A stretch of DNA of 64,000 nt. Origin: Intrasporangiaceae bacterium URHB0013. Its GTDB lineage: Bacteria > Actinomycetota > Actinomycetes > Actinomycetales > Dermatophilaceae. The translations under genes and the position numbers were made by a program. The number at the start of each line of letters is the position of its first letter. The stretch's first letter is position 1. Shown here one piece after another: positions 17,220 to 40,957 of the stretch. Location: NCBI GenBank assembly GCA_000620545.1, contig JIBA01000012.1:1-64000 (forward strand), written 5' to 3'. Below the pieces are notes generated by a model. That model had not been told where the DNA came from and made no database searches. It was given only the letters and a program-made list of their open reading frames with translations.

Positions 17220-18189
17220 GTGAGACTTCTGGCTCGACGACGACGGCGAGCAGTACCACCTGTTCTTCATCTACGCGTCCCGCGCGCTGCGCGATCGCAC
17301 GCCGGCACTTCCGGGCGTCGATCGGGCATGCCGCATCCTCCGGCCTCGTCTTGCAGGAGCGCTTGGTCGATGCGCTCGGACGCGCCGGCCTTCGACGACC
17401 TCGCGACGTGGACCGGGTCGATCGTGCGTCACCCGGACGGACGGTCGTTCATGTTCTACACCGCTTCGACGCTGGTGCCCGAGGCGAGCGCGAACCTCCA
17501 GTCCATCGGGTATGCCGTGTCGACCGACCTCTTCGAGTGGCACAAGGCGCCGGGGCCGGCGCTGCAGGCGGACGGGCTCATGCACGAGAGGTATGCGCCG
17601 CCGCCGGAGGGCAACTGGCACGACGAGGCCTTCCGGGACCCATGGGTTCTTCGGGATCCGGGTGGGGACGGGGGCACATGATGTTCACGGCGCGGTCCGT
17701 GGCAGGGCCTGCTGGGGATCCATCGGACACGAGGACCGTGGGGTGGTCGGGCACGCCTGGTCTTCTGACCTGGAGAGCTGGGAACTGCGGCCGCCGCTGT
17801 CAGAGCCCGGGCAGGGGTTCGGGCAGCTCGAGGTGGTGCAGCCGTTCGTCGTCGACGGCCGGCAGGTGCTGCTCTTCAACTGCATGGTCGGGGACATGCC
17901 GGAGAAGGCCCGCGCGGGTGGCGTGACGGGCGGGGTGTGGATCGCGAAGGCGGAGGGGCCGCTCGGGCCCTACGACATCGCCGGCGCCCAGGTGATCGAC
18001 GACCCATCGCTCTACGTCGGAAAGTTCGTCACCGACCGGGCGACGGGGGAGGCGAAGTTCCTCGCGTTCGTGCACGACCGCGACGGCGCCTTCGTCGGAG
18101 AGATCACCGACCCGTATGCCGTCACCTGGGACGGCGACCGCCTCGCCCTCACGCCGACGCTGAGTTCGGCGGCCACAGCGCGCGACTGA
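17220..18189 (+). pseudogene. Decayed second copy of the GH43-like glycosidase
   Basis: This stretch aligns along its length with the intact gene at 14.9 kb. It begins TGAGACTTCTGGCTCGACGA where the intact gene has TGGGACTTCTGGCTCGTCGA, so the first conserved Trp is a stop codon and no start remains. Indels near 17300 and 17680 split the rest into frames. One frame still encodes DDLATWTGSIVRHPDGR through FRDPWVLRDPG, another RGVVGHAWSSDLESWELRP to the end with VGEITDPYAVTWDGDR. The 3' part is nearly as conserved as the intact copy, so decay is recent. Confidence 0.88.
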
Positions 18190-18305: not shown

Positions 18306-20204
18306 GTGCTGCCAGGGGACCTGTTCGTGCACCTACTCCGGACCTCCGTTCGAGGCTTCTCCGCCTTGGAGGCACACCTGGCTGATCGCATCGCCGAGCA
18401 GATGAGCATCCAGACGGGCCGCCGTCCGGCTGCGAGTGAGTCGCGGTCGTGGGAGCGGAGTCTGCCGGCGCTCCAGGCGGACCTCGTGTCGGCCGGTCTC
18501 GACGACGTCGAGATGCTCATCGAGTACCAGCTGCCGCTGACGAGCAAGCGGGCGGATGTCGTGCTCGCGGGCAAGCACCCAAAGACCGGGCTACCCTCCT
18601 ATGTGGTGGTCGAGCTCAAGCAGTGGAGCTCAGCCGAGAGTTTCGAGGGCAGCGAGACGCTCGTGACCGTCGAGCAGTATGGCCGACGCGCGGTCACGCA
18701 CCCGGCATTGCAGGTCGCCGACTACTGCGACTATCTGTCGTCGTTCACCGTCATGCTGGCCGAGCAGCCGCACTCGCTCGCCGGTGTCGCCTACCTGCAC
18801 AACGCGACCGATCTGGGCGTCTCAGATCTCCTGACTTTGAAGCGGACGAAGCAGGGAGCGCTCTTCACCGGCCAGCGTCGTGGCGCCTTCGTCGAGTATC
18901 TGCGTTCGCTGCTCGCCCCCGGCGAGGGCGGAGCCGAGGCTGCGGATGCGCTGCTGCGGAGCAAGATCACGCCGAGCAAGCAGCTGCTGGCGGTGGCTGC
19001 TGAAGAGGTGCAGAACCGGGAGCAGTTCGTCCTGCTCGACGAGCAGCGGGATGCCTATGAGCACGTGATGCACGCGGTTGAGCGAGCCCGCCGGTCGCAC
19101 ACGAAGACAGCGGTGGTCGTGAGCGGCGGCCCTGGCAGCGGCAAGTCGGTCATCGCCCTGTCGCTGATAGGAGAGATGTCACGCCAGGGTCGTGCCGTCA
19201 TGCACGCGACCGGGTCGCGATCCTTCACCATGACGCTGCGCAAGGTCGCAGGCAAACGAGCACCGCGGGTGCAGAAGCTCTTCACCTACTTCAACTCGTT
19301 CATGACCGCAGAGCCGAACGACCTCGACTGCCTCATCCTCGACGAGGCGCACCGCATCCGGGAGACGTCCGTCAGCCGATACACCCGCAAGGAGTTCCGC
19401 ACTGCTGGGCGTCTGCAGATCCACGAGTTGCTCTCCGCGGCAAGGGTTCCGGTGTTCCTCCTCGACGAACACCAAGTGGTGCGGCCTGGCGAGATGGGAA
19501 CCGTCGAGGACATCGAGGCACACGCAGAGGCTCTCGGGCTGAAGGTCGAGCACATCAACCTCAACGACCAGTTCCGCTGCGGCGGGTCCGAGGTCTACGT
19601 CGACTGGGTGCTGCGACTATTGGGCCTCAAGCCGGGCGGCCCAATCGAGTGGAAGGGCGACGACGGCTTCAGCGTGTCAGTGGCTGACACGCCGGAGGAA
19701 CTCGAGCACATCCTCGCGACGCGCCAAGGCGACGGCTACTCGGCGCGCATGGCCGCCGGCTACTGCTGGCCGTGGAGCGATCCTCGCCCCGATGGGTCCC
19801 TGGTGAACGACGTCGAGATCGACGGCTGGTCGCAACCGTGGAACCTCCGCGGCGACAGGGCCGTCGGCGGCGCGCCTCCAGCCGCCCTGTGGGCGAATGA
19901 CCCTGCAGGCTTCGGCCAGGTCGGCTGCGTCTACACGGCTCAGGGCTTCGAGTACGACCACGCCGGCGTCATCATTGGTCCGGACTTCGTCTGGCGCGAC
20001 GATGGTTGGCGGGCGGTGCGCGAGGAGAATCGCGACCCCGACTTCCGCAACAGGGCGAAGGTGAGCGGCCAAGAGTTCGACCGCTTGGTACGCAACGTCT
20101 ACAAGGTGCTACTCACGCGAGGTATGCAGAGCGTCACCGTCTATTCCACAGATGCGCCAACTCGCGAGCTCTTGCGAAAACTAGTTGACTTGTCGGCTCG
20201 ATAG
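18306..20204 (+). CDS. DUF2075 helicase with N-terminal PD-(D/E)XK-type nuclease
   Basis: A 632-aa protein. The N-terminal third looks like a restriction-type nuclease: Asp84 in SKRADVVLAG and Glu103-x-Lys105 in YVVVELKQWS form the D...ExK triad. The DUF2075 superfamily 1-like helicase follows: Walker A SGGPGSGKS (Lys280), Walker B LILDEAHRI (Asp346), NDQFRCGGSEVY, and VYTAQGFEYDHAGV near the C-terminus. The family recurs in defence islands and is related to Schlafen-type helicases. It probably acts on invading nucleic acid, but the substrate is unknown. GTG 18306 has no clear ribosome site; no in-frame ATG lies nearby. A small gene follows 82 bp later and is probably co-transcribed. Confidence 0.82.
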   Translation: MLPGDLFVHLLRTSVRGFSALEAHLADRIAEQMSIQTGRRPAASESRSWERSLPALQADLVSAGLDDVEMLIEYQLPLTSKRADVVLAGKHPKTGLPSYVVVELKQWSSAESFEGSETLVTVEQYGRRAVTHPALQVADYCDYLSSFTVMLAEQPHSLAGVAYLHNATDLGVSDLLTLKRTKQGALFTGQRRGAFVEYLRSLLAPGEGGAEAADALLRSKITPSKQLLAVAAEEVQNREQFVLLDEQRDAYEHVMHAVERARRSHTKTAVVVSGGPGSGKSVIALSLIGEMSRQGRAVMHATGSRSFTMTLRKVAGKRAPRVQKLFTYFNSFMTAEPNDLDCLILDEAHRIRETSVSRYTRKEFRTAGRLQIHELLSAARVPVFLLDEHQVVRPGEMGTVEDIEAHAEALGLKVEHINLNDQFRCGGSEVYVDWVLRLLGLKPGGPIEWKGDDGFSVSVADTPEELEHILATRQGDGYSARMAAGYCWPWSDPRPDGSLVNDVEIDGWSQPWNLRGDRAVGGAPPAALWANDPAGFGQVGCVYTAQGFEYDHAGVIIGPDFVWRDDGWRAVREENRDPDFRNRAKVSGQEFDRLVRNVYKVLLTRGMQSVTVYSTDAPTRELLRKLVDLSAR

Positions 20205-22708: not shown

Positions 22709-22862
22709 AGAGAACCCGCGTTGTCGTCGGGCATGCCTGGTCGGCAGACCTCGAGACCTGGGAGCTGCAGCAGCCCTTGTCGTCGCCCGGGCACGGCTTC
22801 GGACAGCCCGAGGTGATGCAGCCGTTCGTCATCCACGGACAGGCGACGCCGCTCCCCGTCCC
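22709..22862 (+). pseudogene. Fragment of a third GH43-like glycosidase copy
   Basis: About 150 bp encode RVVVGHAWSADLETWELQQP and onward to GFGQPEVMQPFVIHGQ, colinear with the mid-portion of the intact gene (VGHAWSADLEHWELRPPL, GFGQLEVPQPFVVDGRQ). Nothing of the rest is recognisable. It sits between two defence genes, 4.5 kb from the decayed copy, so the first defence module lies between two relics of the same gene family. Confidence 0.8.
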
Positions 22863-24731: not shown

Positions 24732-26966
24732 TCACTTGCGCGCCGGCTCGTTGACTGCAACTGGCGTGGCCATTGTCCGGTAGAACGAAACAAAACTGTT
24801 CGGTCTTCCGCTCCACGAGAGCGCAAGGTGGTCTCGTGCACGGGTGGCGGCAACATAGAGAAGAGACCGCTCACGCAGCAGAGCGTCCTTCCACGCCTCG
24901 TCGTCGTATAACTTTTCCTGGAAACTCACAGGACTGGAGTCGACGCCCAGGCCGAACATGACCACGCGGGAGAACTCAGTGCCCTTGGCTCGGTGCATGG
25001 TCATCACTACGGGCGCTGCGGGCCGGGCATTCCCGCCATCGAACACCTCGATCGGCACTCCGCGCTCGGCGAGTCCGGCGGATACGCGATCACCTTGGGA
25101 CCTGTCGCGCACCAGAACAGCGGTCGCCTCTTTGGGGTTCGTATCGTGGGCCCAGTCGCGCAGAAGGTCAGCCACCTTGTCCAGCTCATCCCCAGGATCA
25201 GTGGCCTCGACGAACTTTGGCCGGGGGCCCCTCCTTGCGGATCGGTAGTTGAGCGGGGCTTCCTTGCCGTCCTCAAGATCGGCGTAGTCGCCTCCTTGAA
25301 GCAAGGTCATTGCATACTCGAGGTTCTGCTCGGTCGTTCGGTAGTTAAGCGTTAGTCGCTGCGATCGGCCGACAACCCTTATCCCGTAGTGAGCCAGGAC
25401 GACTCGCTGCCCGTAGATCCGCTGGTGCGAGTCCTCTGCTATGAAAAGGTCGTTTGCCTGCTCGGGAACAAGCGCTCGAAGCAGCTGCCAACGAGCGGGC
25501 GTCAGGTCTTGGCCCTCATCGACCAGGACGCGATCGACCGTGGCGTGATCCTCCTCCAGAGCGATCCGCCTGAGATGGGCGGCGGCGATCGTCGCTGCTT
25601 CGCCGAAGTCAACGACTCCTCCCGCTCGCCCCCTCAGCCGATATGCCTCTACTACGCCCCATATGGCGTCTCGCTTGGCTCGGTCGAGGGGGACTCCCCG
25701 GCCCAACCGACTCACAGCAAAGTAGTCGTCGCGGCTCGTGACGCAGTTGGGCAGGATGGCCATCTCGTACTCGGCCTGCACGAACGACGGGGTCCGGAGG
25801 AAGTCGGGCAGAGCCGAGCCCGCGGAATCAATAGCTTCCTGCCACCTGTTCTGCAGCGCTACCTTGACCTTCGGCATAGCGTGCCCAAGCACGCGCTCTG
25901 CATCGACCGCGATGTCTGACCCGGCGTTCCTGATGACTGCAGCTGCCACTTGGTCGATGCCTCACACAAAGACCCCGACGTCACCCAATGACGGAGCCAG
26001 CCGCACCTCTGGATCGAGGCGCCGGAGGTCCCGCTTCATGTCGTCCGCCAGGTTGCGTGTGTACGTCGTGAGCAGAATGCGAGCTTCTGAATCCCGTTCG
26101 GCAAGCGTGCGAGCGCGGTGGATCAACACAACCGTCTTGCCTGTACCCGCTCCACCGGACAGGCGGAATGGACCGTTGTAGTTCCGGTCGATGTACCTGC
26201 GTTGCGCGGGATGCAGGAAGACACGCCAGGACCCGAAGTCACCTTCCTCGATGACGCGCCGCAGCTCCTCGCTGCCTTCCACATACGCGAACGAGAGCTG
26301 AGCCGCCGGGTGTGCCAAGCCAGTGACAAGTTGTTCGTCCTCGGAACCCTCCACAGCGGACTCTCGCGCGAGGCCGAGATCTTCCTTGATTTGTGCGACT
26401 GAATCGCCGCTCGCGAGACCTAGGAGAGCCAGTTGCTGCCACTCAGGAGCGTCAGCGCCTACCGCGAGGAGCGCGTCGTCATCGCGCGCCCGCAAAGCCT
26501 GTTCAGCGAGCCTGGGGTCCAAACCTAGCTCGTCTCGCAGCTCAACGAGGTCATGACCCATGGTCACGAGGAAGGAGGGCGACAGTTCCTCCGCTGGCAT
26601 CGAAATGACGGCATGGGTGCTCGAATGGGGAACTTCGGGGCTCTCGAGAACGGCTTCGGTAACTCCGATCACGGGATTCGTCCTAAGGACGATCTTCTTC
26701 GCGATTTCGATGGCTTCGTCATGCGGCCAGACGCCATTGAAGACGTAGGTGGTGTCCCGCCCATGAGGAATCTTGTGTAAGACGGCCCTGAAGCCTTGAT
26801 CTACACGTCCAGTCCTTACCCTCGGGTCTGCGCTGTTGACGATGGGTTCGATATGCAGGCCCGGCGCGGTGTCGTCAGTGCTCAGTTTCTCAAGAAAAGC
26901 AAACGCCTTCTTCTTCAGCTCCGTTGCCACCGTTGCCCGACTACCGAGGTGCAGATATATGGTCAT
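24732..26966 (-). pseudogene. UvrD-family helicase with RelE-like N-terminus, interrupted by in-frame TGA
   Basis: One 744-codon reading frame is split by a single TGA at 25962-25964; translation before and after it is in the same frame. Codons 1-334: residues ~1-95 resemble RelE/ParE toxins (DPRVRTGRVDQGFRAVL, then FNGVWPHDEAIEIAKK), followed by a linker and Walker A SGGAGTGKT (Lys277). After the stop: LVDEGQDLTPARWQL (Walker B), SQRLTLNYRTTEQ, MTMHRAKGTEFSRVV, and LLYVAATRARDHLALSWSG, the remaining UvrD motifs. The full-length family is a toxin-like/helicase fusion common in actinobacteria. A GTG at 25949 could restart the second half (405 aa). Either a recent nonsense mutation (CGA to TGA), recoding, or reinitiation giving two subunits. 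Confidence 0.78.
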
Positions 26967-27370
26967 TCCTCAGGCCCCTACTTGCAGTCGGCGGTTCGGC
27001 GGCCTGTGTCCAGCGATCACTGACGACTCCAGAGGCCGGGCTCCCAGAAGAGAGTCCATCGCCGACCATAGTGGTAGACGCCCCTCTTCCGACTCATCAC
27101 TGCGTAACAGGTGGAGTCGTAAGCTGATGCGGGGCGACGGCTGTTCGGCTGAGCGTTGGCGGCCATCCACGGGCCAGCGATGTCGCACTAGCAGCCAATC
27201 GAGCGCCCGGTAGGCCACAGGGCCGGAGCCCACGGACATAGTCTCCTCGCGTTCGGTGCGTGCCATGAACCCCACACGGCGGCATCGGGCTGCTTCGGAG
27301 AGACGACGCGCCCGGCAATTCGCCCATCGGGTCAGCTGTGGTCGCTAGGGTGCAGCCGAGGGGAGCGCTA
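26967..27370. other. Divergent intergenic region of the helicase and Druantia-like genes
   Basis: About 400 bp between two divergent starts. It must hold both promoters. Several short open frames cross it but none has a ribosome site, recognisable protein or coding-like composition. No repeat or strong hairpin was noticed. Confidence 0.4.
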
Positions 27371-30300
27371 GTGAACTTGAAGGCTTGGAACTCGAGGCTG
27401 TTCGCGGAACTTGTCGCCGATGGTCACGAGGACGAACGGCTGTACCTCTATGTGGACCGCGGCGTGCTCGCCCATGCGTCCGGGTTAGACGAAGAATCGG
27501 CGATCAAGAACTTCTGTTCCGCGTTCCACGCACCGCCGCCGCGAGAGTCGCCGTTCACATCCGCTCTTCGAGAGACGGCCGCATGGAGATCGGGTGGGTG
27601 GCACGGCGAACCGCCGTGCGTGGCAGCGTTGAGCATGACAGTCCTCGCGGTGACGGAGGACCCAATTGGCAGCGCCAACGGTGTCTATCGGCGTCAGAAC
27701 AAGCTGCTGGGTCTTCCGGAGGAGGCCAAGGCGCCACTTGGGTACGACAGCGTCACGGGTATCTGGAAGATCTGGAACGAGTGGCTCAGCGGACCTGGGG
27801 CACGCTACGGGAGACCGAGCGCCCAGGCCCACGAACGTTGGACGCTTCAAGGCTGGGCGCGCAGCCAAGGGCTCGTGCGGTTTAGTGACCGACTCCTGAT
27901 AGAAGACTTCCTTAGCAGCGTTCGAATCGGTCCGGCCGACGTGCGGCGAGCGGAACAGGTAGCGGAGGACTTCCTGGCATGGTTGCGCTATCGGGGCGAA
28001 CGAGGCAGGAAGTTGTTAGCAAAGGTCTCTGATGACGCCGCCATTGACGTGCTGCGTGAGGTCATGGGGGACGAAGTCGTTCGATGGACCGGGACGCGCC
28101 GACGGGTCAGGCAGGGCGGACATCAGCTTCAGGCCCTGCTCACCTACGACGAGTGGAGTGAAGAATTCGGCTTAGCCGTGCCGGTTGACCAGCGCCTCCT
28201 TGGTCAAGACGTCGTCATGGATGGCGAGCAGGTTCACATTGACGAGTTTCTGCCATACCTGAGGCTCCCCGGTGAGCCGGACATGCTTCGGAGTGGGGCT
28301 AGCCTGGCAATCACGGAAGGGGTCAAAGTCCACTTCTCGCCTGAGCCAGCGTATGTCCTTCGGGACGAGCCTGCTGTCGAGGGCAGTCTGCAAGCTCGTG
28401 GCGCCGCATCGTCCAAGGCGTACCGCGTCCTCGTATACGGCCAGCACCTTGCGGAGACAAGGGAGGTCCTTCGGCGTGCCGGGCACGGCGGAGACCCAGA
28501 ACCGGCCGCGGCGACGGGCTGGTACTGGTTTACGGACGTCATGACGTGTCCCGACACGACCGAGCTGCGCGCATTGGGGCTGGGCTCCCTGGCGTCGCCT
28601 CGGCCTGCGGCCATGGAGCTCAGTGGGGGCTTGCGTGTGAGTGGAGACACGTATCTGGTCGGCTTCGAACCAGACCTCGCGGTGCCTGAAGGGGTGGCAG
28701 TAACCCTGGACGGTGTCCCGATCGATGTGCCTGGTGGCGCGTCCACTCCTTTGCGCAACCGCTCGCTTATGCCGGGGACTCACGTCGTCAGCACCGACGT
28801 GGGCGACTCGCTCTCGTTCGTGACGGTGACCCATATTCAGGAGCGCGCCCGGGGATCCGACCTGGGGTGGCGCCTGGGCACGGGTCTCGAGCCGGTAAGG
28901 GACTTGGATCAACCCGTGTACACCATGACGCTTAGTGGGGCCACCATTCGTGGCATAACTCTGCAGACTCCCTTGACGGCGCGCTTGATAGCGGGCCGGG
29001 AGTGCCTCGCCGTTAGCGTGCTTGGCGAGATCCGTCAGGTGTGGCCGGCGACCGAAGGGTGGTTGCAGGCAATTGGTCTAGAGCCGGGCGCCGTAGATCT
29101 GAGTCGTGCGCTGCGCGACCTCCTACCTAACTCTGCGTTCTTCCTCTTCCGTAGCCAACGCACCGGGGCCATCGACGCCATTGCGCTGCACCCGGACGCT
29201 GCTGCCTCTCCGGGGAAGGTTCCATCCGTCACCAGGCCCGACCTTGCCTCGGCTCTGTTCCAGGAGTGGCGATGGATCGGGGACGCAGAAACAAAACTGC
29301 GCGATGAGATCCTCACTAAGACGTTTGGATGGGCGCACTCACCGGCAGCAACGACTCGACCGGCACCCGCCGCCTACCAAGGCCTCAAGGTCGACCTACG
29401 AACAGACGTCATTGCGGGTCCTGTGGAGACAAATCCATACAACGACATACTTAATTGGCTCTCGGAGCGCGAGCGCGGAACTGCGTCGCTTGAACAGTTC
29501 CGAGATGCCTGGGCATGGTCATGTGCGCGCCACGGACTTCCCGAACTTGCGCTAGAGGAACGTTTAGCGCTCTACCGGTTGGAGCGCCTGGGCTTTCTGG
29601 AGAGGGATTACGCGCGTCGGCGAATCGGGGTCGCGCGGCCAGCGCTCTCGGCACTTCCCTCGGCCAACGGGCTTCTGTTCCTGACTGGCGCTCGCCCGAC
29701 ACGCCTCATGCAGCGTCTCGACGACGAAAGCGATTCCGATGAAGTCATCGCGGAAGCGATCATGTCGACGGATATTCAGCAGCGCACCCAACTGGACGCT
29801 CATGGGCGACCGATCGCGCCCACGGTCATTTACGTCTCCTTCGACCCGTCCGAGGCCGCAGTGGTTAGGGCAGGGATGGAACGGTTGGGAGTAGCCATGC
29901 AGGGGTTTGCTAGCGAGGCGATACTTGATCATGCTCCGGACGCCCGGCACGCACTTGGCTTGGCCATGCGCTACATCGGCTCGCCCGGTCGCCACTTCTT
30001 GAGGCGAAAGACAGGCCCGGAGGGCGTTGCCGACTGGAGCCCAGCCTCAAGCGATAATCCGCGAGGGCTGTACGAGTACCGCTTGCCCTACGGGTCGGTC
30101 TTTGCGTATCGAACCGAATGGGGAGGGGATCTTGTGAAGGTAGACCGTCAGCTCGGTTCATGGGTGGACACGGGAGCGCAAGGACACAGAAACCTGCTGA
30201 AATACCTTCTGACCCAACGCAAGTTGTTTGTCCCTCGAGGCCGCTCACTCCCGTTGCCTCCACTGCTCGACCGTGCCCTCGTCCTCAGAACGGGCCTGCT

Positions 30301-30451
30301 GCCGACCGCAACGACTCTGTCGCCCCGAGGCTTCGGTCGCAGTGCGAACTACTGGGTGTACGAGAATGTCGACCTAGCAACTGCCACTCATGTGGCTGAC
30401 CTGCTTGCCCAAACACTGGATGAAATCACCCGAGAGGACTTTGTGCCGTGA
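27371..30451 (+). CDS. Large protein upstream of DruE-like helicase (DruH-like candidate)
   Basis: A 1026-aa protein without recognisable catalytic motifs. GTG 27371 is preceded at 5 nt by AGGGGAG and is preferred over a GTG 33 nt earlier. The N-terminus (NLKAWNSRLFAELVADGHED, YLYVDRGVLA) is compact; the middle is beta-rich. The last four bases overlap the next start (GTGA at 30448-30451), so the two proteins are made in fixed ratio and very probably form one system. By size, position and partner it fits DruH of type III Druantia, but I base this on architecture, not on sequence alignment. Lower GC than the flanks. Confidence 0.6.
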   Translation: MNLKAWNSRLFAELVADGHEDERLYLYVDRGVLAHASGLDEESAIKNFCSAFHAPPPRESPFTSALRETAAWRSGGWHGEPPCVAALSMTVLAVTEDPIGSANGVYRRQNKLLGLPEEAKAPLGYDSVTGIWKIWNEWLSGPGARYGRPSAQAHERWTLQGWARSQGLVRFSDRLLIEDFLSSVRIGPADVRRAEQVAEDFLAWLRYRGERGRKLLAKVSDDAAIDVLREVMGDEVVRWTGTRRRVRQGGHQLQALLTYDEWSEEFGLAVPVDQRLLGQDVVMDGEQVHIDEFLPYLRLPGEPDMLRSGASLAITEGVKVHFSPEPAYVLRDEPAVEGSLQARGAASSKAYRVLVYGQHLAETREVLRRAGHGGDPEPAAATGWYWFTDVMTCPDTTELRALGLGSLASPRPAAMELSGGLRVSGDTYLVGFEPDLAVPEGVAVTLDGVPIDVPGGASTPLRNRSLMPGTHVVSTDVGDSLSFVTVTHIQERARGSDLGWRLGTGLEPVRDLDQPVYTMTLSGATIRGITLQTPLTARLIAGRECLAVSVLGEIRQVWPATEGWLQAIGLEPGAVDLSRALRDLLPNSAFFLFRSQRTGAIDAIALHPDAAASPGKVPSVTRPDLASALFQEWRWIGDAETKLRDEILTKTFGWAHSPAATTRPAPAAYQGLKVDLRTDVIAGPVETNPYNDILNWLSERERGTASLEQFRDAWAWSCARHGLPELALEERLALYRLERLGFLERDYARRRIGVARPALSALPSANGLLFLTGARPTRLMQRLDDESDSDEVIAEAIMSTDIQQRTQLDAHGRPIAPTVIYVSFDPSEAAVVRAGMERLGVAMQGFASEAILDHAPDARHALGLAMRYIGSPGRHFLRRKTGPEGVADWSPASSDNPRGLYEYRLPYGSVFAYRTEWGGDLVKVDRQLGSWVDTGAQGHRNLLKYLLTQRKLFVPRGRSLPLPPLLDRALVLRTGLLPTATTLSPRGFGRSANYWVYENVDLATATHVADLLAQTLDEITREDFVP

Positions 30452-33400
30452 ACACAAACCAAGGCTCGAATGCTCGGCCTATGACGCCTCGGAGTGTCGC
30501 CGAGCACCTCGAGGACGTGTTCATGCGCTACTACAGCACGGCGTACGAACTGCGTGATGCTGGCATTACTGCAGAACGCGACGCCCTTTTGCGCGCACCT
30601 GGCACCACATTTACCGAGCCGTATGTCGAGGCGATGCCGACGTACCAACAGTCAAGCGAGTCGCTCGCCGCAGTGCTCGACGGGCTCGATGTGCCGACAG
30701 CTGCATCCCTGATCCAGGCTGGCCTACTCCCGTACACCTACCCCTATGCGCATCAGGTTGACGCGCTGCGCGCGTCCCTGATGGGCCAAGATGTCGTGGT
30801 CGGAACCGGCACCGGCTCGGGTAAGACGGAAGCGTTCCTCATGCCCGTCCTCTCTAGGCTTGTGGCCGAAAGCGCGCGCTGGACACCTGATGGACCATCG
30901 GATGCAGCGCCCTGGTGGCCCGGCAAGGGCCCCTTCGTGCCCCAGCGAACGGCCGACCCAGGCCGCCCAGCGGCTGTCCGCGCGCTGCTTCTCTACCCAA
31001 TGAATGCGCTTGTGGAGGACCAACTCGTCCGCCTTCGCAAGGCTCTCGACTCCCCGATGGCTCGAGCCTGGTACAAGCAGCACACGGGGGGCCAGCAGTT
31101 CTACTTCGGTCGGTACACCGGCCATACCCCGCTGCCAGGGACGCGGTTCAGTGCCGACACCAGCAGAGTTGATCGCCTCCGCCGCCTGATGAAAGGTGGG
31201 GCCGCGCGTCACGCGAAGTTGCTGGAGCGAATTTCCTCGAACGAGGTTGCGGAGGACGCGCGCTATTTCCTGCCCGCCTTGGACGGCTCCGAAATGCGGA
31301 GCCGCTGGGATATGCAAGCCACGCCCCCCGACATCCTCATCACCAACTACAGCATGCTCTCCATTGCACTCGGACGCGCTGACGAAGCACCGATGCTCAA
31401 CGCGACGCGCGAGTGGATCGAGAGGGATGCGCGCAACGTCTTCACGCTGGTAGTGGATGAGCTGCACATGTACCGCGGCACGGCAGGATCTGAAGTCGCC
31501 TACCTTTTGCGGCGCCTGTATGCAGCGCTCGGCCTCGACAAGCGGCCAGACCAACTGTCGATCATCGGGACCTCAGCGAGCATCAGCAATGATGATCAAG
31601 GACGAACCTTCCTCAGTGAGTTCTTTGGCAGGCCTCGCGACCGACGATTCCAGTTTGTGCAGGCCCAGGCCCAGACGCCAACCACAGGAACCGACCTCAC
31701 GGCTCTCGTCGCCTCACCGGAGTCCACTCCGCCCCCGGGGGATCTTCCCTCCCAAGAGGTAAGAGACGCGGTACTGTCGGCGCTCGCTCACGACGGAACC
31801 CTGCGGCCGCGGGCGCTAAACGACCTTGCGGGCAAGATGTTCCCTACACTCGATGCCGCTCAGGCAGACCGCTCCGTCGACAATCTCATCGCCGCCCTGG
31901 GCCAACAGACGGTGCCGGCCATACGCTTGCGAACCCACCTCTTCGCGAAGACGCTTCAGGGCCTCTGGGCCTGCAGCGATCCAGCCTGCCCACAGGTGGA
32001 AGACCACCATCGCAGCGACGGGCGGCGCATCGGGAAAATCTACAAGTCAGCCCGCTTCACCTGTGAGTGCGGCAGCCGCGTCCTTGAGCTCCTGTACTGC
32101 CAGTCCTGCGGGGAAACAATGCTGGGCGGGTTCACTGCACGGGAGCAGGGCCGGGAGTTCCTTTTGTCCACGCGAGCAGCCCTCGACGAGCTCCCTGACC
32201 GAGCACTGAGCGCACGTACTGGCGACAACTATCGGGTGTACTGGCCCACGAGCCGTGTTCCTGTCAAGACTGCGGTCAAGTGGACGGCCTCTGGCCGCAA
32301 ACTTGATTCCGACCAGGCAACGCCGAAGTACCAGATGCGCTTCCAGCGTGGGAAGTTCCAGCCGGGGACGGGGGTTCTGTCTCCCGCGCCCAGCGGCTCA
32401 ACGGGCTACTACTTCGAGATCAGGTCCACAGGTGTCGAGGGAGCGGCTGGCCGCATGCCGGCATTTCCGACTCGCTGTCCGGGATGCGGCGATGACTGGG
32501 AATACGAGTGGATAGGCCCAGCAGAGGACCCAAAGCGCAGCAGGTCGCCGATTCGCACTCAGGGTGTCGGTTTCGACAGAGCGAACCAGGTCCTGACCGG
32601 CTCGCTCAAGAGACTCCTGGAAACTGGTCTAGTCATATTCTCGGACAGCCGTCAAGGTGCCGCCCGAGTGTCCTCTAACCTCGAGTTGGCCCACTATCTC
32701 GACCTTGTCAGGACGCTTCTCATCGAGGAAGTGGGATCTCCCGCGGACGAACGGACTCTCATCGCAGGCTTTCTCGACGGGACTGATCGAGGGCCCGAGG
32801 CCGTTGCAGCCTTCGGGCGATTGGAAGGACGCGACTCAGAGGCCGCCATGGCCATGATGAAGGCGGCCAACGGGTTTCCCCTTAGTTCAGTCGATGAGGA
32901 AGCTATCGCGCGAGCACAAGAACTGTTGGCCGGCCGCCCGTCGGTGATTGATCTCTCGCGGCGGGTGGAGCCGAAGCTCCTCGCCCTTGGAGTCCACCCG
33001 GCTGGCCCCATGTACACCCTGCAGAGAACCAAAGTGAAAAAGGGAGAGGGGCGCAGTTGGACCACGTGCTTTGACTGGGATGCATCGCCCATTCGGGACC
33101 GTGGAAGTGCCCTGGACCCCGAGGCAAGGGAACTGCTCCAAGCTATGCGCGAGGCCCTAAGCGAACAGGTCGTCCGGACTGCCTTCGCCGGCGGGGACCG
33201 TGATGTTGAGTCGCTCGGGCTGGCCTTCACCGTGCCGTCGACATCACCAAGAGTGGGCTCCCTCGATGGCGAAACTTCATTGCAGTTCGCCTGTTCAGTT
33301 CTGCGAATCTTGGCTCGAAAGCGCCGCTTCCAGGGACTCTCGGAGTTCAAGTCCAACTGGCCAGAGGAGGCGCGCGTCTACGCAGACCGCGTTGCTGGCA

Positions 33401-35805
33401 ACCAGAAGACCTCCGAAGACGGAACTATGCTGCTGGAGGCTCTCGGCGACCAGCTCGGCGTCGGCGAAGCCTCCGGGTATCTGGTTGACCGGGAGAACGT
33501 ACGCCTACAGGCCGCGCCCGAACCGCAGTTCTGGCGTTGCGCACAATGCCGAACCAAGCACCTCCATGCAAGCGCCTTGACCTGCACTAGGTGCGGCTCG
33601 GCGCTATCGGCCGAGGTGCAGCCCGTGGAGTTGGCTGAGGACTACTACGCGTACCTCGCCACCGCTGCGGGCGGCCCGTATCGGCTGCATTGCGAAGAGC
33701 TCACCGGGCAGACTGATCCGCTCGAAGCCCAAGCCCGCCAAGCTCAGTTCCAAGGGGTCTTTGTGGATGAGGAGGAGCGTCCGCTTACTGACCAGGTGGA
33801 CGTCCTGTCTGTTACGACCACTATGGAGGCCGGCGTCGACATTGGTGCGCTCAAGGCGGTGGTAATGGCGAACATGCCGCCCCAGAGGTTCAACTATCAG
33901 CAACGTGTGGGACGGGCAGGTCGACGCAGCGAGCATCTCGCGGTGGCTCTCACTGTCTGCCGTGGGGCCCGGAGTCACGATGAGCACTACTTCAACAACC
34001 CAGAAGCAATCACTGGGGAAGCGCCACCACAACCGTTCCTGGACATGGCCTCCCCACAGATCATGGAGCGGGCGTTCAATGCCGCGGTCCTGACACGCCT
34101 CTTCCGCGATGCCGAGAGTGACGTTACGGACTTTGAACCTGGACGCTCCGTGCACGGACAGTTCGGCAGTGTCGATGCGTGGAAAACCAATAAGAAACTG
34201 CGTGACTACGCGTATGAGTGGATTTTAACTAGCGAGGATGAAATCCGCGACCTCGCTAGGAGACTGCTGACCTCGACTGCCGTTCCGCATGACGACACGT
34301 CACTATATGGCGCAGCCTCAACCACTATGGTCGACGCAATCTCCGAGATCGCGGCTGAGGCGCGGACATCGGCACTTTCAGAGGCGTTGGCTCAGGGTGG
34401 GCTCCTGCCCATGTTCGGCTTCCCGACGCAGGTCAAAATTCTGTACACGCACCGGCCTAGGATCGGCCAGGAACCTAACACACTAGACCGTGACGCTGAC
34501 ATCGCCATCAGCGAGTTTGCTCCCGGTTCAGAGATCGTGAAAGACAAGGCCGTCCATACCGCCGTGGGCGTTGTCGACTACTTCCAGACCGCGTCGGGCC
34601 ACTGGGTCTCCGGTCCTGAGCCGCTAAAGTACGCGGTCGAGGCGGGGTTGTGTAATTCGTGCATGGCTGTAACTCTTGAGGATTCCGATACTTGTCCAAC
34701 CTGTGGCGCTTTCGAGCCGGACTTCATCCGTCTGACGCTGGTTGAACCGACGGGTTACCGAACTTCCTTTAGGCCACGAGACTATGAGCAACTGAGCGAG
34801 CCGACCTCGCGAGCGTCTCAGCCAAGACTGTCGATTACACCCTCCGCCACGAAGAAGCTTGGTTCGGCGCGGTATCGATACGCGAACGCCGAAGTTATCG
34901 TGGCAAACGACAACAATGGTCACCAGTACCGGTTCGCGCCGGCAACCTTCAATGCCCAAGGCCAGGTGCACGATGCGGATGGACTCTTCGAAACGGGTCT
35001 CGTAAGCGAAAAGGAGCGTGCGGCCAAGGCCAGGCTGAATGTGACGATCAAGGGGGACGAGCCAGCGCCGGTCGCGATCGCGGCTCGGCGGAGGACGGAC
35101 GTGCTGACGATCGGTCTTGATCACACACCCCCCGGTGTTCTGATCGATCCGCGCCTTCCCGCTGGGAGAGGGGCATGGGCATCGTTCGGCTTCATGCTCA
35201 AGGGCGCTGCGGTCCGGTGGCTGGACATAGGCTCGGACGAAGTCGAGGTGGGCGTCCATCCGATCTCGCATGAAGGGGTCGTGACAGCCGAGCTGTTCCT
35301 GGCGGATACATTGGAGAATGGGGCAGGCTATGCCTCTCGGTTCGGCGACCAGTTCGCGGAACTCGTCGAGCAGACCCGCAGTTTCGCGGAGAAACTCGAG
35401 ATCCACGACGGCAATCCCTGCGACTCCAGCTGCTACCAATGCCTGCGCGACTTCCACAACCGTTCCTGGCATCCGCTCCTTGACTGGGGGCTGGCCGTGG
35501 ACCTCCTGGACCTCCTTAGCGGAAGTGAGCTGAACCCACACCGCAGGAGCGATCGCGACGAAGCAGTGCTCGACGCCTTCTCCAAGGACTTCGGATTCGA
35601 TGTGCTCGATCTTGGGGTGCCTGCGGTGAGAGGGAAGAAGGGGACCGTGATGGCCTTCCTCCACCCATTCGAGGATGTGACACCTTCGTCGCTGTGCGTG
35701 CGTGTTCAGGAGGTCCGGAAACAGCACCCCGAAGCAATCTTGCGCTCGACGTTCGACCTGCTTAGGACTCCCGGTGCGCTGGTGGGAAAACTCATGACCG
35801 GCTGA
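30448..35805 (+). CDS. DruE-like DEAD/DEAH helicase with DUF1998
   Basis: A 1785-aa protein. Superfamily 2 helicase: YAHQVDALRASLMGQDVVVG, Walker A GTGTGSGKT (Lys126), Walker B VVDELHMYRG (Asp337, a DELH box), IIGTSASIS (motif III), and far downstream VTTTMEAGVDIGALKAVVMA and QRVGRAGRR (motifs V-VI). A long insert between the two RecA halves holds zinc-type pairs CECGS...CQSCG, CPGCG and CAQCRTKHL...CTRCG. The C-terminus is DUF1998 with CDSSCYQCLRDF (Cys1658, 1662, 1665) and WHPLLDWGLAVDLLDLL. This architecture and size match DruE, hallmark of Druantia anti-phage systems; DISARM DrmA/DrmB carry the same domains on separate, smaller proteins. Confidence 0.82.
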   Translation: MNTNQGSNARPMTPRSVAEHLEDVFMRYYSTAYELRDAGITAERDALLRAPGTTFTEPYVEAMPTYQQSSESLAAVLDGLDVPTAASLIQAGLLPYTYPYAHQVDALRASLMGQDVVVGTGTGSGKTEAFLMPVLSRLVAESARWTPDGPSDAAPWWPGKGPFVPQRTADPGRPAAVRALLLYPMNALVEDQLVRLRKALDSPMARAWYKQHTGGQQFYFGRYTGHTPLPGTRFSADTSRVDRLRRLMKGGAARHAKLLERISSNEVAEDARYFLPALDGSEMRSRWDMQATPPDILITNYSMLSIALGRADEAPMLNATREWIERDARNVFTLVVDELHMYRGTAGSEVAYLLRRLYAALGLDKRPDQLSIIGTSASISNDDQGRTFLSEFFGRPRDRRFQFVQAQAQTPTTGTDLTALVASPESTPPPGDLPSQEVRDAVLSALAHDGTLRPRALNDLAGKMFPTLDAAQADRSVDNLIAALGQQTVPAIRLRTHLFAKTLQGLWACSDPACPQVEDHHRSDGRRIGKIYKSARFTCECGSRVLELLYCQSCGETMLGGFTAREQGREFLLSTRAALDELPDRALSARTGDNYRVYWPTSRVPVKTAVKWTASGRKLDSDQATPKYQMRFQRGKFQPGTGVLSPAPSGSTGYYFEIRSTGVEGAAGRMPAFPTRCPGCGDDWEYEWIGPAEDPKRSRSPIRTQGVGFDRANQVLTGSLKRLLETGLVIFSDSRQGAARVSSNLELAHYLDLVRTLLIEEVGSPADERTLIAGFLDGTDRGPEAVAAFGRLEGRDSEAAMAMMKAANGFPLSSVDEEAIARAQELLAGRPSVIDLSRRVEPKLLALGVHPAGPMYTLQRTKVKKGEGRSWTTCFDWDASPIRDRGSALDPEARELLQAMREALSEQVVRTAFAGGDRDVESLGLAFTVPSTSPRVGSLDGETSLQFACSVLRILARKRRFQGLSEFKSNWPEEARVYADRVAGNQKTSEDGTMLLEALGDQLGVGEASGYLVDRENVRLQAAPEPQFWRCAQCRTKHLHASALTCTRCGSALSAEVQPVELAEDYYAYLATAAGGPYRLHCEELTGQTDPLEAQARQAQFQGVFVDEEERPLTDQVDVLSVTTTMEAGVDIGALKAVVMANMPPQRFNYQQRVGRAGRRSEHLAVALTVCRGARSHDEHYFNNPEAITGEAPPQPFLDMASPQIMERAFNAAVLTRLFRDAESDVTDFEPGRSVHGQFGSVDAWKTNKKLRDYAYEWILTSEDEIRDLARRLLTSTAVPHDDTSLYGAASTTMVDAISEIAAEARTSALSEALAQGGLLPMFGFPTQVKILYTHRPRIGQEPNTLDRDADIAISEFAPGSEIVKDKAVHTAVGVVDYFQTASGHWVSGPEPLKYAVEAGLCNSCMAVTLEDSDTCPTCGAFEPDFIRLTLVEPTGYRTSFRPRDYEQLSEPTSRASQPRLSITPSATKKLGSARYRYANAEVIVANDNNGHQYRFAPATFNAQGQVHDADGLFETGLVSEKERAAKARLNVTIKGDEPAPVAIAARRRTDVLTIGLDHTPPGVLIDPRLPAGRGAWASFGFMLKGAAVRWLDIGSDEVEVGVHPISHEGVVTAELFLADTLENGAGYASRFGDQFAELVEQTRSFAEKLEIHDGNPCDSSCYQCLRDFHNRSWHPLLDWGLAVDLLDLLSGSELNPHRRSDRDEAVLDAFSKDFGFDVLDLGVPAVRGKKGTVMAFLHPFEDVTPSSLCVRVQEVRKQHPEAILRSTFDLLRTPGALVGKLMTG

Positions 35806-36326
35806 GGTTGAGGAGCGGTCACCTATCCGACCTGTCAGGCCTACGAGGGAACTGGCTTGCGACTCACGAGCGCCGCGAGTGCTGAGCCAAATTGTCGCGG
35901 CCACACGACAGTGGGAATTCGCGTTTCCGAGAGCGACTTGATTCCAGTCTGCGTCTGGGATGGCGGCGAGGCCGAAGCAGACGACACCCGGTGCCCTTCG
36001 ATATCCTCGCTCGAACGGAACGCGTGTTGGAAGTGGCGGGAGTCGATCGAGTCTTCGAATCAGGTCGTGGTTATCATTCCGCTCTATGCCACGCAGCGCG
36101 GCGAGTCAAAAGTTGTGCTCGACCACGCAGTGATGCGGGAGCGCCACTGTACAGATGTCGGCGAGGGCAAGCGGCTCTCCGAGGATTGGGGTGTGAGCTA
36201 GCCATAGCCGTAGCCCGCTCTCTCAGGCGTTCGATCCGGATCGGACCTAGATCAATGTCCTGCGACACTCACGAACTCAGGCTTCGACAATGACCCATCC
36301 CCTACAAAGTTTGGAAAGGTGCCGCT
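35806..36326. other. Intergenic region after the DruE-like gene
   Basis: About 520 bp without a supported gene. Short overlapping open frames exist on the plus strand (35857-36201 and 35892-36293) but lack ribosome sites and recognisable content. No repeat, tRNA or clear terminator noticed. The end of the region supplies the GGAAAGG ribosome site of the next gene. Confidence 0.4.
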
Positions 36327-37319
36327 GTGCTGTCGCCTGGATCCCAAGACCCCCAGACTCGATTCATGAGTGCCGTGCGCGGAATGCTGGCACGGCCTGA
36401 TTACTTGATTCCCCTAACAGCGGCAGAGAGGCAGTTTCGGGACCACTACTACGGACTGAACTCTGCGGCGCTGCTGGAGGATCTTTTCTTCGATGCCTTA
36501 GGCAACTACGTGCGGCAGGTAGATCCCGGCAGCCAGTTGACACGACCCCCCACAGGGCAGAAGGGGTGGGACTACGCTTTCGATGGGTTGCAGATCTCGC
36601 ACAAAGTGAGCCAGAGCTTGAGCGAGATTGCAGCTTTATGGGACGCGACTAAGAGGGGCGTGGAGAGGTGGTCCTTCGACGACCCCATCGTGTACGTCTT
36701 GGGATCCAACACCCCGTCGACAAGTCTGCTGGTCGAGTTGGACAGAGCCACGTCGCTGAAGTGTCGAGCTGTGGCCGATCTCGGCCGACCGTACGTCGCG
36801 AACGGCAAGACGCTCCTAGTCGTCCGCTGGCCAGGGGATGGTAGCCAGCCACAGTTACTTGACATTGTTCCGACCGAAACGGGTCAAACAGTAGAGGACG
36901 CACTTCCATTCAGCCGTGTCTGGGAACACGTTGCGGCAAACGTTGCAGCGGGTCGGGGGGCGGATGAGGTCGACGTCGTCGCGACGAGCAGAGGCTGTCC
37001 GCCCCTGCTTGTTGAGACGCTGCGAATGGATGGTCTTCCCGTGCCTATAGACCTATCCGCAACCTTCCGCGGTGGTGTCTATCTGTTCCCGCGTGAATTG
37101 CTTCAAGACCTTAGTGTAACAACGAATAATCGTGCAATTTTGATACCTAAAGAGACGATCAAGGAACTTTTGAGCGAAGCGAGTATTCGGGGGCTGTTTG
37201 CCCCCCTGCCTTTGTGGTATTGGGTGTACGCGCAGGAGCGACCGCCCGACATGTACTCCGCCCAGCGGGCCGAGTACGACACACGATTTAGCGCGCGCGG
37301 CAATATCGATCGCGCCTGA
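36327..37319 (+). CDS. Putative type II restriction endonuclease
   Basis: A 330-aa protein, GTG 36327 with GGAAAGG 7 nt upstream. The segment LLEDLFFDALGNYV, then GQKGWDYAFDGLQISHKVSQ, resembles a PD-(D/E)XK nuclease core: an early Glu in a helix, Asp in GWDY, and Gln-x-Ser-His-Lys at the catalytic strand. Two further alpha/beta segments follow. No known enzyme was recognised. It is convergent with the cytosine methyltransferase and Vsr genes, the arrangement expected of a restriction enzyme partnering that methylase. AT-richer than the flanks, particularly 37080-37160. Confidence 0.55.
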   Translation: MLSPGSQDPQTRFMSAVRGMLARPDYLIPLTAAERQFRDHYYGLNSAALLEDLFFDALGNYVRQVDPGSQLTRPPTGQKGWDYAFDGLQISHKVSQSLSEIAALWDATKRGVERWSFDDPIVYVLGSNTPSTSLLVELDRATSLKCRAVADLGRPYVANGKTLLVVRWPGDGSQPQLLDIVPTETGQTVEDALPFSRVWEHVAANVAAGRGADEVDVVATSRGCPPLLVETLRMDGLPVPIDLSATFRGGVYLFPRELLQDLSVTTNNRAILIPKETIKELLSEASIRGLFAPLPLWYWVYAQERPPDMYSAQRAEYDTRFSARGNIDRA

Positions 37320-37526
37320 GTAGGTCTTGCCCAGGCTCCACGGTTGAAGTGGTCCTGTCGAAATTAGGAATCGCCCTGAGGCCGGTTCCTCGACTGCGGC
37401 GCGCTCTTGTAGTGGCCGTTAGCGCCGATTGATCGTTCTTCGCGGGCTGTGGGGCATGTCGAAGAGAGCGCGATGCTAGTGGTGCGGACCTCGATCGCGG
37501 TGATCCGCTTCTTCAGTGCGCGTTTG

Positions 37527-39023
37527 TCAGCCAGCGACTGTCATTGAAAGTCGCGCCCTGAGGTCGAGTTCGTGCGCAAGGGCCGCTTCGGCCAACGCCT
37601 CACCCGTTGGCTTCAACGGAGCGCCGAGCACGGCGCGTACCAGCCGGCTCGGCAAATCCGACGCGTCTCGCTCCACGTGAGTACGGAAGACGTGCCACGC
37701 GGCTCCCACGGCCACGCCGTTGCCGACCTGCTTGTACGAGGCCTGGTCCCGCTGGCCACCGAATGAAAATGTGCGAGAAAAGCCCTGTAGCCGGGCGGCT
37801 TCGTGTGGCGTCAAACGACGTCTGCGGCTGCCAATGATCGAGGTCTGGGTGATTGCGACCAAGGCAGGCAGGTAGGTCGGTGCCTTTGCGCGAATCCCTG
37901 ATGGACGGAAATGCATGACCGTCTCCCACAGAGAGGCGGTGTCCTGCGCCTGCCACTCCAGCTTGCGCCGCGACTCGGGGAACCTGGCAAACGAGCGGTT
38001 GGCCTTCTTCCAGGCGTCGATGATGTCGCGGTGTTCGTCATAGAACCGTGCGTTCTTGATAAGGAAGTCAGCCTTCCAGCGCGGGAGGGCGTCCAGCTCA
38101 ATTGGATCAAGTCCCCGCTCAGGAATCCAGGCATCTGCCCACAAAGGGAACCCCGGTAGACGTGTACCGCGGGCGCACCACATGCGCTGCACCAGGTCGT
38201 CCCAGACGTTGATCCACTCGGTCTCGTCGGCCGTGAGTTGGTACTTGGACAGGTTCGGGATCGTTGAGTCTTCGTCGAGGATCCAGTCAACGTCCCAGTC
38301 CTGCACGCGCCATCCGTCTACGGGGGCGCGAACAACAGTGGGCGGAACGTCGACCTCCGCCATGGCCCGCTCTGGACCTACGTACGTGCCGAGAATGAAC
38401 ACCCGGTCTCGAACCTGCGGCGTTCCACCCAGCGAAGGCGGCAGGAAGTGCGGTGAGAAGACCGACGGCGTCGACGACACTCGGTACCCAAGCTCGCGCA
38501 GCGTCTGGATGATGACATCCCACTCATGCCTATGCCGCGGGCCCGCGAGGTTACGCACGTTCTCCAGGAGAACCACGGCCGGAGTGAGCTCCTCGAGGAT
38601 CCGAGCGATGTTCCAGAACAGGGTGCCCCGTGCCTCGTCCATCCCGCGTTGATAGCCGGACTTCGAGAAGGGCTGGCACGGGAATCCGGCCGCGAGGACG
38701 TCGTGGGCTGGAACCTCAACGGGCCCGTCTTCCGGGGTCGCGATGGTGATGTCGGTGTTGATGATCGGCTGGTGCGCCTCCGGTAGCGGATCCACCCAGT
38801 TCCGGATGTAGGTCTGGCGGGCTTCCCGGTCGATCTCCGAGACGTAGACGCACCGACCGCCGGCGTGATCAAGCATGGCGTGAAAGCCGCCGATGCCGGC
38901 GAACAGATCCACGAAGGTGAACGGTGCGAATCCCTTTGGCATGCAAGGAAGCTTAGCTGAGATTTCAGCTGGGTCAAGCTCCCGCGCAGGGTAAGCCCAG
39001 CCCTTTGTCGAGTCGTCCATCAT
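37527..39023 (-). CDS. dcm: DNA (cytosine-5) methyltransferase
   Basis: A 498-aa C5-methylase transferring methyl from AdoMet to cytosine in a defined site. Motif I FVDLFAGIGGFHAML (AdoMet), motif IV GFPCQPFSKSGYQRG with the catalytic Cys, motif VI ENVRNL, motif VIII QVRDRVFI, a target-recognition region of ~150 residues, and motif X KQVGNGVAVGAAW. The ATG at 39023 (two ATGs in tandem) follows GGAGG by about 11 nt; earlier in-frame sequence overlaps the vsr gene and is not conserved. The methylated sequence cannot be predicted. The vsr gene lies upstream on the same strand (126-bp gap). Confidence 0.92.
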   Translation of the reverse strand: MMDDSTKGWAYPARELDPAEISAKLPCMPKGFAPFTFVDLFAGIGGFHAMLDHAGGRCVYVSEIDREARQTYIRNWVDPLPEAHQPIINTDITIATPEDGPVEVPAHDVLAAGFPCQPFSKSGYQRGMDEARGTLFWNIARILEELTPAVVLLENVRNLAGPRHRHEWDVIIQTLRELGYRVSSTPSVFSPHFLPPSLGGTPQVRDRVFILGTYVGPERAMAEVDVPPTVVRAPVDGWRVQDWDVDWILDEDSTIPNLSKYQLTADETEWINVWDDLVQRMWCARGTRLPGFPLWADAWIPERGLDPIELDALPRWKADFLIKNARFYDEHRDIIDAWKKANRSFARFPESRRKLEWQAQDTASLWETVMHFRPSGIRAKAPTYLPALVAITQTSIIGSRRRRLTPHEAARLQGFSRTFSFGGQRDQASYKQVGNGVAVGAAWHVFRTHVERDASDLPSRLVRAVLGAPLKPTGEALAEAALAHELDLRARLSMTVAG

Positions 39024-39148
39024 GGCAAGTTGTACCTCCGTTGGTGCACATCCCGGAGGCCGACCCGATGCGCTGGTGGATGGTTCGTTTTGATGCTGTC
39101 GGACAGCCCACCAGAAGCCACTGACAGTGGTGGGACGCAGCGCGACTG

Positions 39149-39556
39149 TCAGGCAAGGATGACTCTGGCGACCGCTGTTGCGTCGTCTTGAACGCTGCAC
39201 TCCCACACCCGTACGACGTGCCAGCCGTGCTCCTCGGCGAGCTCGGTTGACCGCTTGTCGCGCTCGGCGTTCCGGCGCATCTTGGCTTCCCAGAGGGCCG
39301 CATTCGGTCCGGTCCAGGGTGTCTTGCGCCCGTGCTCGGGGCAGCCGTGCCAGAAGCAGCCGTCCACGAAGACGGCGATGCGGCGTCGCGGAAGAACGAA
39401 GTCGGGCGTGCATCCCTTGGCAATGCGGGGGTGAAGACGGAACCGTCCCCCGACGGCATGGACCGCCTTCCGGAGAAGAACCTCGGGCGCGGTGCTCTCT
39501 CGCTTCCGGCCGGCGAGGTGTGACCCGGCGCCGGTGCTGACCCACTGCTCAACCAC
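39149..39556 (-). CDS. vsr: Very short patch repair endonuclease (Vsr)
   Basis: A 135-aa nuclease that nicks next to T:G mismatches created by deamination of 5-methylcytosine. The conserved block is present: HPRIAKGCTPDFVLPRRRIA with the metal-binding Asp, then VDGCFWHGCPEHG with the zinc-binding Cys/His, and MRRNAERDKR. Vsr is the usual companion of Dcm-type methylases, so the pair with the methyltransferase downstream is a functional unit: one enzyme makes 5-methylcytosine, the other repairs its mutagenic product. GTG 39556 is the likely start. Confidence 0.92.
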   Translation of the reverse strand: MVEQWVSTGAGSHLAGRKRESTAPEVLLRKAVHAVGGRFRLHPRIAKGCTPDFVLPRRRIAVFVDGCFWHGCPEHGRKTPWTGPNAALWEAKMRRNAERDKRSTELAEEHGWHVVRVWECSVQDDATAVARVILA

Positions 39557-40620: not shown

Positions 40621-40957
40621 CCGCCGCTCAGGACAGTCGCGAGTGTCTGGCAAACGACCCGTCTCGTGGGGCGGTGGACGAATGAGGTGGCTAGGGGATC
40701 GCACCCGTAGTGACACAAACCTGCAGCAAGTGTCGGGGGTGTCTGTCATCATCTTTCTGGGTCAAGAGGCGCGACCGTCACCCACCTTGGAGGGGTCGCC
40801 CGGCAACCGGTCCGCCCCGGTGCCGTCCAAGGAAGACCCGGCCGCGCCGGCATCCGTCGGTTCGGCCAGAGCGGGCTCGGTTCAGGGGCTCCTTGGACCG
40901 AAAGGGCTGTCGATGCACCCATCCCTGCTTCCCGGGCTTCGCCCCGCAACTCCGCTA
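40621..40957. other. Intergenic stretch with possible Cys-rich fragment
   Basis: Mostly unexplained. A frame from GTG 40710 starts TQTCSKCRGCLSSSFWVKRR, which recalls short zinc-ribbon proteins, but its continuation is Arg/Pro-rich without sense, so it is at most a relic. Confidence 0.3.

Follow-up and report, generated by a model that had tools for sequence, protein, structure and literature searches.

ArmD is a component of the Type II ARMADA anti-phage system and, as described in a preprint (PMC12458937), is composed of a RelE-like N-terminal domain and a GajB-like UvrD helicase. According to the same source, ArmA, ArmB, ArmC, and ArmD are encoded in a strict operon, and in E. coli the loss of any one of the four arm genes abolishes defence (PMC12458937); also, the Walker A substitution K266A in ArmD abolishes defence, and the Walker B substitution D454N weakens it (PMC12458937). 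The E. coli ArmD (WP_061676263.1, 704 aa) is encoded in a four-gene operon of the plasmid pPSJ-12_1 (locus L180). In the literature that we searched at the level of titles and beginnings of abstracts, furthermore, no description of an interrupted or split ArmD was found, and a search on pseudogenes among defence genes yielded no case that is drawn on here.

The window analysed here, namely the 64,000 nt at positions 1 to 64,000 of contig JIBA01000012.1 from Intrasporangiaceae bacterium URHB0013, contains a homologue of armD. On the minus strand, it runs from 26966 to 24732 in one frame of 745 codons, which is interrupted by a single internal stop, the TGA at 25964–25962 (codon 335), and ends at a terminal TGA. 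The first half (25962–26966, minus strand) starts with the ATG at 26966 and encodes 334 aa with the RelE-like domain (aa 1–110), a linker, and the early part of the UvrD RecA1 domain including the Walker A residue K277. The second half (24732–25961, minus strand) has 409 codons up to the terminal TGA and encodes the remaining UvrD-like helicase with the Walker B residue D483 and the C-terminal helicase motifs. An in-frame GTG begins at 25949 (minus strand), 12 bases past the internal TGA, and would give a product of 405 aa; these 405 residues are genuinely coding, matching the relatives with E values down to 4e-135 and 56% identity. When the stop is read through, residues 7–723 align with residues 15–698 of E. 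coli ArmD (31% identity, E 4e-94), and K266 and D454 of the latter correspond by alignment to K277 and D483, which are thus placed on opposite sides of the stop. An earlier note on this DNA had described a RelE-like/UvrD fusion cut by a single TGA, with a GTG restart shortly beyond it. Its coordinates and the single stop are right, the sequences on both sides of the TGA aligning over their whole length with relatives that are intact and single-chain, and the GTG is present as claimed, while the strand, here minus, had been left unstated. To this we can now add its identity, armD of ARMADA Type II, and the lack of its partner genes.

The fusion itself was borne out by the structural models of its parts. 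The N-terminal residues 1–110, for which sequence searches against Pfam and the PDB found nothing useful, were modelled alone with a pLDDT of 84.9 and adopted a RelE/YoeB/ParE-type fold. Foldseek matched this model best to a YoeB/ParE toxin (E 5e-4), and the best VIA entry was 6n90_A (Z 10.0, 82 residues, rmsd 2.6), with RelE/YoeB/ParE/HigB/YafQ-type toxins making up nearly all of the top 50 VIA entries. Residues ~248–735 have a UvrD-type helicase fold (model pLDDT 87.9), for which the VIA comparison with 4c2t_A gave a Z of 34.1 (441 residues, rmsd 3.8).

The stop site was then compared with that of relatives, for which the best 80 of 144 confirmed loci and 13 other genomes of the family were taken, giving 93 loci in total. 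Two of them (L036 and L094) are frameshifted and 91 are uninterrupted, and 89 distinct relatives were left after dropping two duplicates; a partial viral contig (L096), which ends short of the stop site, was left out of the column count. In each of the 91 loci, both halves of the window gene align to one and the same uninterrupted ORF. The stop column is a sense codon in all 89 distinct in-frame relatives drawn from the best 80 of 144 loci and the family genomes, with Ser in 22, Ala in 18, Thr in 17, Gly in 11, Arg in 7, Lys in 4, Asn in 3, Val in 2, and a few singletons. The lost codon was hence not a conserved Arg, the column being variable and Arg occurring in just 7 of 89; the earlier note had proposed to check homologues for an Arg CGA here. 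Naturally split homologues, which the note had also envisaged, were looked for and none was found at the stop site. Among the compared loci, the only interrupted relatives are those with frameshifts elsewhere (L036 and L094). One further locus, L089, was flagged as having one TGA, and we rejected it as an equivalent stop; there is no stop within its read-through match, and the residue at the site is Lys.

In terms of conservation, 150 columns are at least 95% conserved, and the window reading departs from them at three (columns 64, 435, and 479), as do 74 of the 89 other relatives at zero to three. Since 147 of the 150 conserved columns are thus kept, the lesion looks recent, in accord with the earlier statement that no other lesion is visible; a simple Poisson estimate would put the upper bound on neutral divergence since inactivation at ~2.3%. 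In the tree, the window gene sits on a long terminal branch (0.69, rank 58 of 60), as the sample contains no close relative; this is a point against the reading favoured below, although the distance from root to tip is unremarkable (rank 40 of 60). The gene was not found in any of the eight other genomes of the genus (E 1e-20), and 14 of 186 family genomes, its own included, have a match. Plasmid records gave 212 matches, all below 60% identity, and viral records one, the partial contig L096.

In relatives of the genome_contigs set, ArmC is encoded directly upstream of ArmD in 76 of 78 testable loci, namely 73 within 700 nt plus L014, L031, and L054, in which the two genes are adjacent; the testable loci leave out L004, which is too short, and the frameshifted L036. 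ArmC also adjoins ArmD in all eight same-family neighbourhoods examined, out of 13 family relatives. In our genome, ArmC, a YprA-type helicase, is absent both from the window and from the rest of the assembly, where its search returned just the distant Druantia protein DruE and weak helicase matches. ArmA, a BrxHII-like helicase, had no match in the window, nor in the genome at E 1e-5, when searched with a 665-aa part that finds 68% identity in L172. ArmB, a PglX-like methyltransferase, was not found within the window either (best E 1.5). An ArmD without partners need not be dead, however, as L058 (3912–6197) and L064 (3768–6197) have an intact ArmD with no ArmA, ArmB, ArmC, or Druantia signal in the locus; these two are possibly stand-alone forms of ArmD. 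We also noticed that genes of ARMADA II decay repeatedly, as seen in the frameshifted ArmD of L036 and L094 and in the frame-broken ArmC of L169 and L172.

The armD-like gene is located in a defence island (18306–39545) with a GC3 of ~0.66–0.83, which is lower than that outside (~0.9), and the island looks horizontally acquired. It is equipped with genes for a Schlafen-group-3-type helicase and GmrSD-like, armD-like, DruF/DruL-like, DruE-like, and DruM-like proteins. The Schlafen-group-3-type helicase (632 aa, 18306–20204; PF09848, 279 bits) marks the left edge. A Druantia-like locus occupies 27338–39545, in which a single chain of 1,037 aa matches both the DruF4 and DruL4 profiles and is accompanied by matches to DruE4 (1,742 bits) and to a DruM2-like cytosine methylase (844 bits). 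The locus has a DruF–DruL fusion and mixes Druantia types. Furthermore, a direct repeat of 139 nt (77% identical) is present at 17736–17874 and 22716–22854. The latter copy resembles a fragment of the gene around 17512–18189 and extends over the mechanically assigned start of the GmrSD-like ORF, the true start of which is probably further in; the repeat may be a scar left at the edge of the island. Just outside the island, a SAM-IV riboswitch was found at 40760–40877 (46.3 bits, above gathering).

Taken together, it is highly probable that we are dealing with an armD orphaned within a defence island, with no ArmA, ArmB, or ArmC in the window, and that one nonsense mutation inactivated it. Of the options raised in the earlier note, the fresh nonsense mutation is the one that the absence of the stop from all compared in-frame relatives and the intact conserved columns support. 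Stops in frame are reported to be common in bacterial genes and need not be fatal, many of them not marking pseudogenes as judged by dN/dS (PMC7918605). The argument that the gene is dead therefore draws on the absent partners and the divided core no less than on the TGA. The homology, the gene order in relatives, the stop site, and the absence of the stop from relatives were computed here, as were the absence of ArmC from the genome and the lack of any signal for selenocysteine or suppression. The second half is conserved almost perfectly, which would also be consistent with continued production of a protein in some way, or with a sequencing error; these alternatives were weighed as follows.

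Recoding of the TGA, by selenocysteine or another form of readthrough, would give a full-length enzyme, and selenocysteine became a serious rival because the genome was found to encode tRNA-Sec (TCA anticodon) next to SelA and SelB (C10:227604–230160). Near this set there is also a formate-dehydrogenase-like gene that has a TGA within it (C10:219405–230160 for both together), and one relative, L017, has Cys at the stop column. Nonetheless, the TGA in the window has no stable downstream hairpin (z of +0.15 to +1.2 against shuffles), whereas the formate dehydrogenase TGA, as a control in the same genome, has a clear one (z of −1.5 to −2.5), and Cys occupies the site in only one of 70 relatives, with Ser, Ala, Thr, and Gly dominating. 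Selenocysteine was rejected on this hairpin and column evidence. A suppressor tRNA was likewise rejected, all 47 of the 47 RF00005 tRNAs having been typed with sense anticodons and none with a stop anticodon. There is, furthermore, no Rfam element at the site or on the gene, and TGA is the usual terminator in this DNA, ending 38 of the 47 picked ORFs of the window. The readthrough proposed in the earlier note therefore has neither a selenocysteine signal nor a suppressor tRNA behind it, and we consider recoding very improbable. A working split enzyme, in which ribosomes bind at the TGA-GG and start anew at the GTG 12 bases downstream to give two cooperating subunits, is the least probable of all the readings considered. 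A GAGG does overlap the stop 10 nt upstream of the GTG, both halves are well conserved, and on paper a restart at 25949 is plausible from the sequence. Starting at this GTG, however, would skip Gly336-Ile-Asp338-Gln, so that Gly336 and Asp338, conserved in 88 and 89 of the 89 relatives, respectively, would be present in neither half; neither half is hence expected to be a working helicase. Moreover, the cut interrupts the predicted core β-strand 331–336, which belongs to the first RecA-like domain and lies between Walker A and Walker B, and the core would need to be assembled from two pieces that lack these conserved residues. As no compared relative is split at the stop site, the two-subunit option of the earlier note falls away. 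In a variant of this idea, two polypeptides arise from the orphan armD through termination and re-initiation at the same TGA-GG/GTG arrangement, and the RelE-like domain, freed from the helicase, is re-wired with the neighbouring Druantia proteins; we regard this as highly doubtful, slightly more so than recoding.

The main alternative is an error of sequencing or assembly, by which one base of the assembly is wrong and the strain itself has an undamaged gene. It would be consistent with a single-base change unaccompanied by any other lesion in a gene that keeps its conserved columns, and the species is represented by one genome. This alternative appears unlikely, however, given an assembly in 17 contigs with a completeness of 100, and substitution errors in sequencing are rarer than indel errors; moreover, the lack of the partner genes does not depend on any single base call.

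Returning to the orphaned and inactivated armD, we suppose that loss of the partners would have removed selection on the gene and that the nonsense mutation would be recent. Translation would stop at codon 335, within the predicted β-strand of the first RecA-like domain, leaving a first piece that contains Walker A and the RelE-like domain, with Walker B and the other motifs on a second piece, if one is made. Neither of them should then be able on its own to bind and hydrolyse ATP, and probably no functional protein is made. Most likely, the gene is an ordinary remnant that died recently and does not represent a new type of split or recoded enzyme; it is one more phage-defence gene that was left behind and broken after loss of its operon, for which selenocysteine decoding needed to be ruled out. 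The case illustrates the turnover of defence islands and reveals no new mechanism; in annotation, both ORFs should be treated as one interrupted armD and not as two proteins.

In comparison with known proteins, residues ~248–735 of the armD-like protein share their fold with the SF1A helicases UvrD, PcrA, and Rep, from which the protein differs in its additional RelE-like and linker domains and in an identity of ~22% in the 4c2t_A alignment. Intact ArmD proteins of Actinomycetota (L003, L004, L005/L085, L084, and L086) are 53–55% identical to the read-through frame over the full length; they are encoded, however, in one uninterrupted ORF that normally lies directly behind the gene for a YprA-type helicase of ~2,150 aa (ArmC), and in this the window gene differs from them. 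Unlike ArmD of E. coli, finally, the window gene is broken by the TGA at codon 335 and stands without ArmA, ArmB, or ArmC in the window, while it has the same domain architecture as ArmD of ARMADA Type II, aligns with it end to end, and holds the Walker A and Walker B residues at the same positions.
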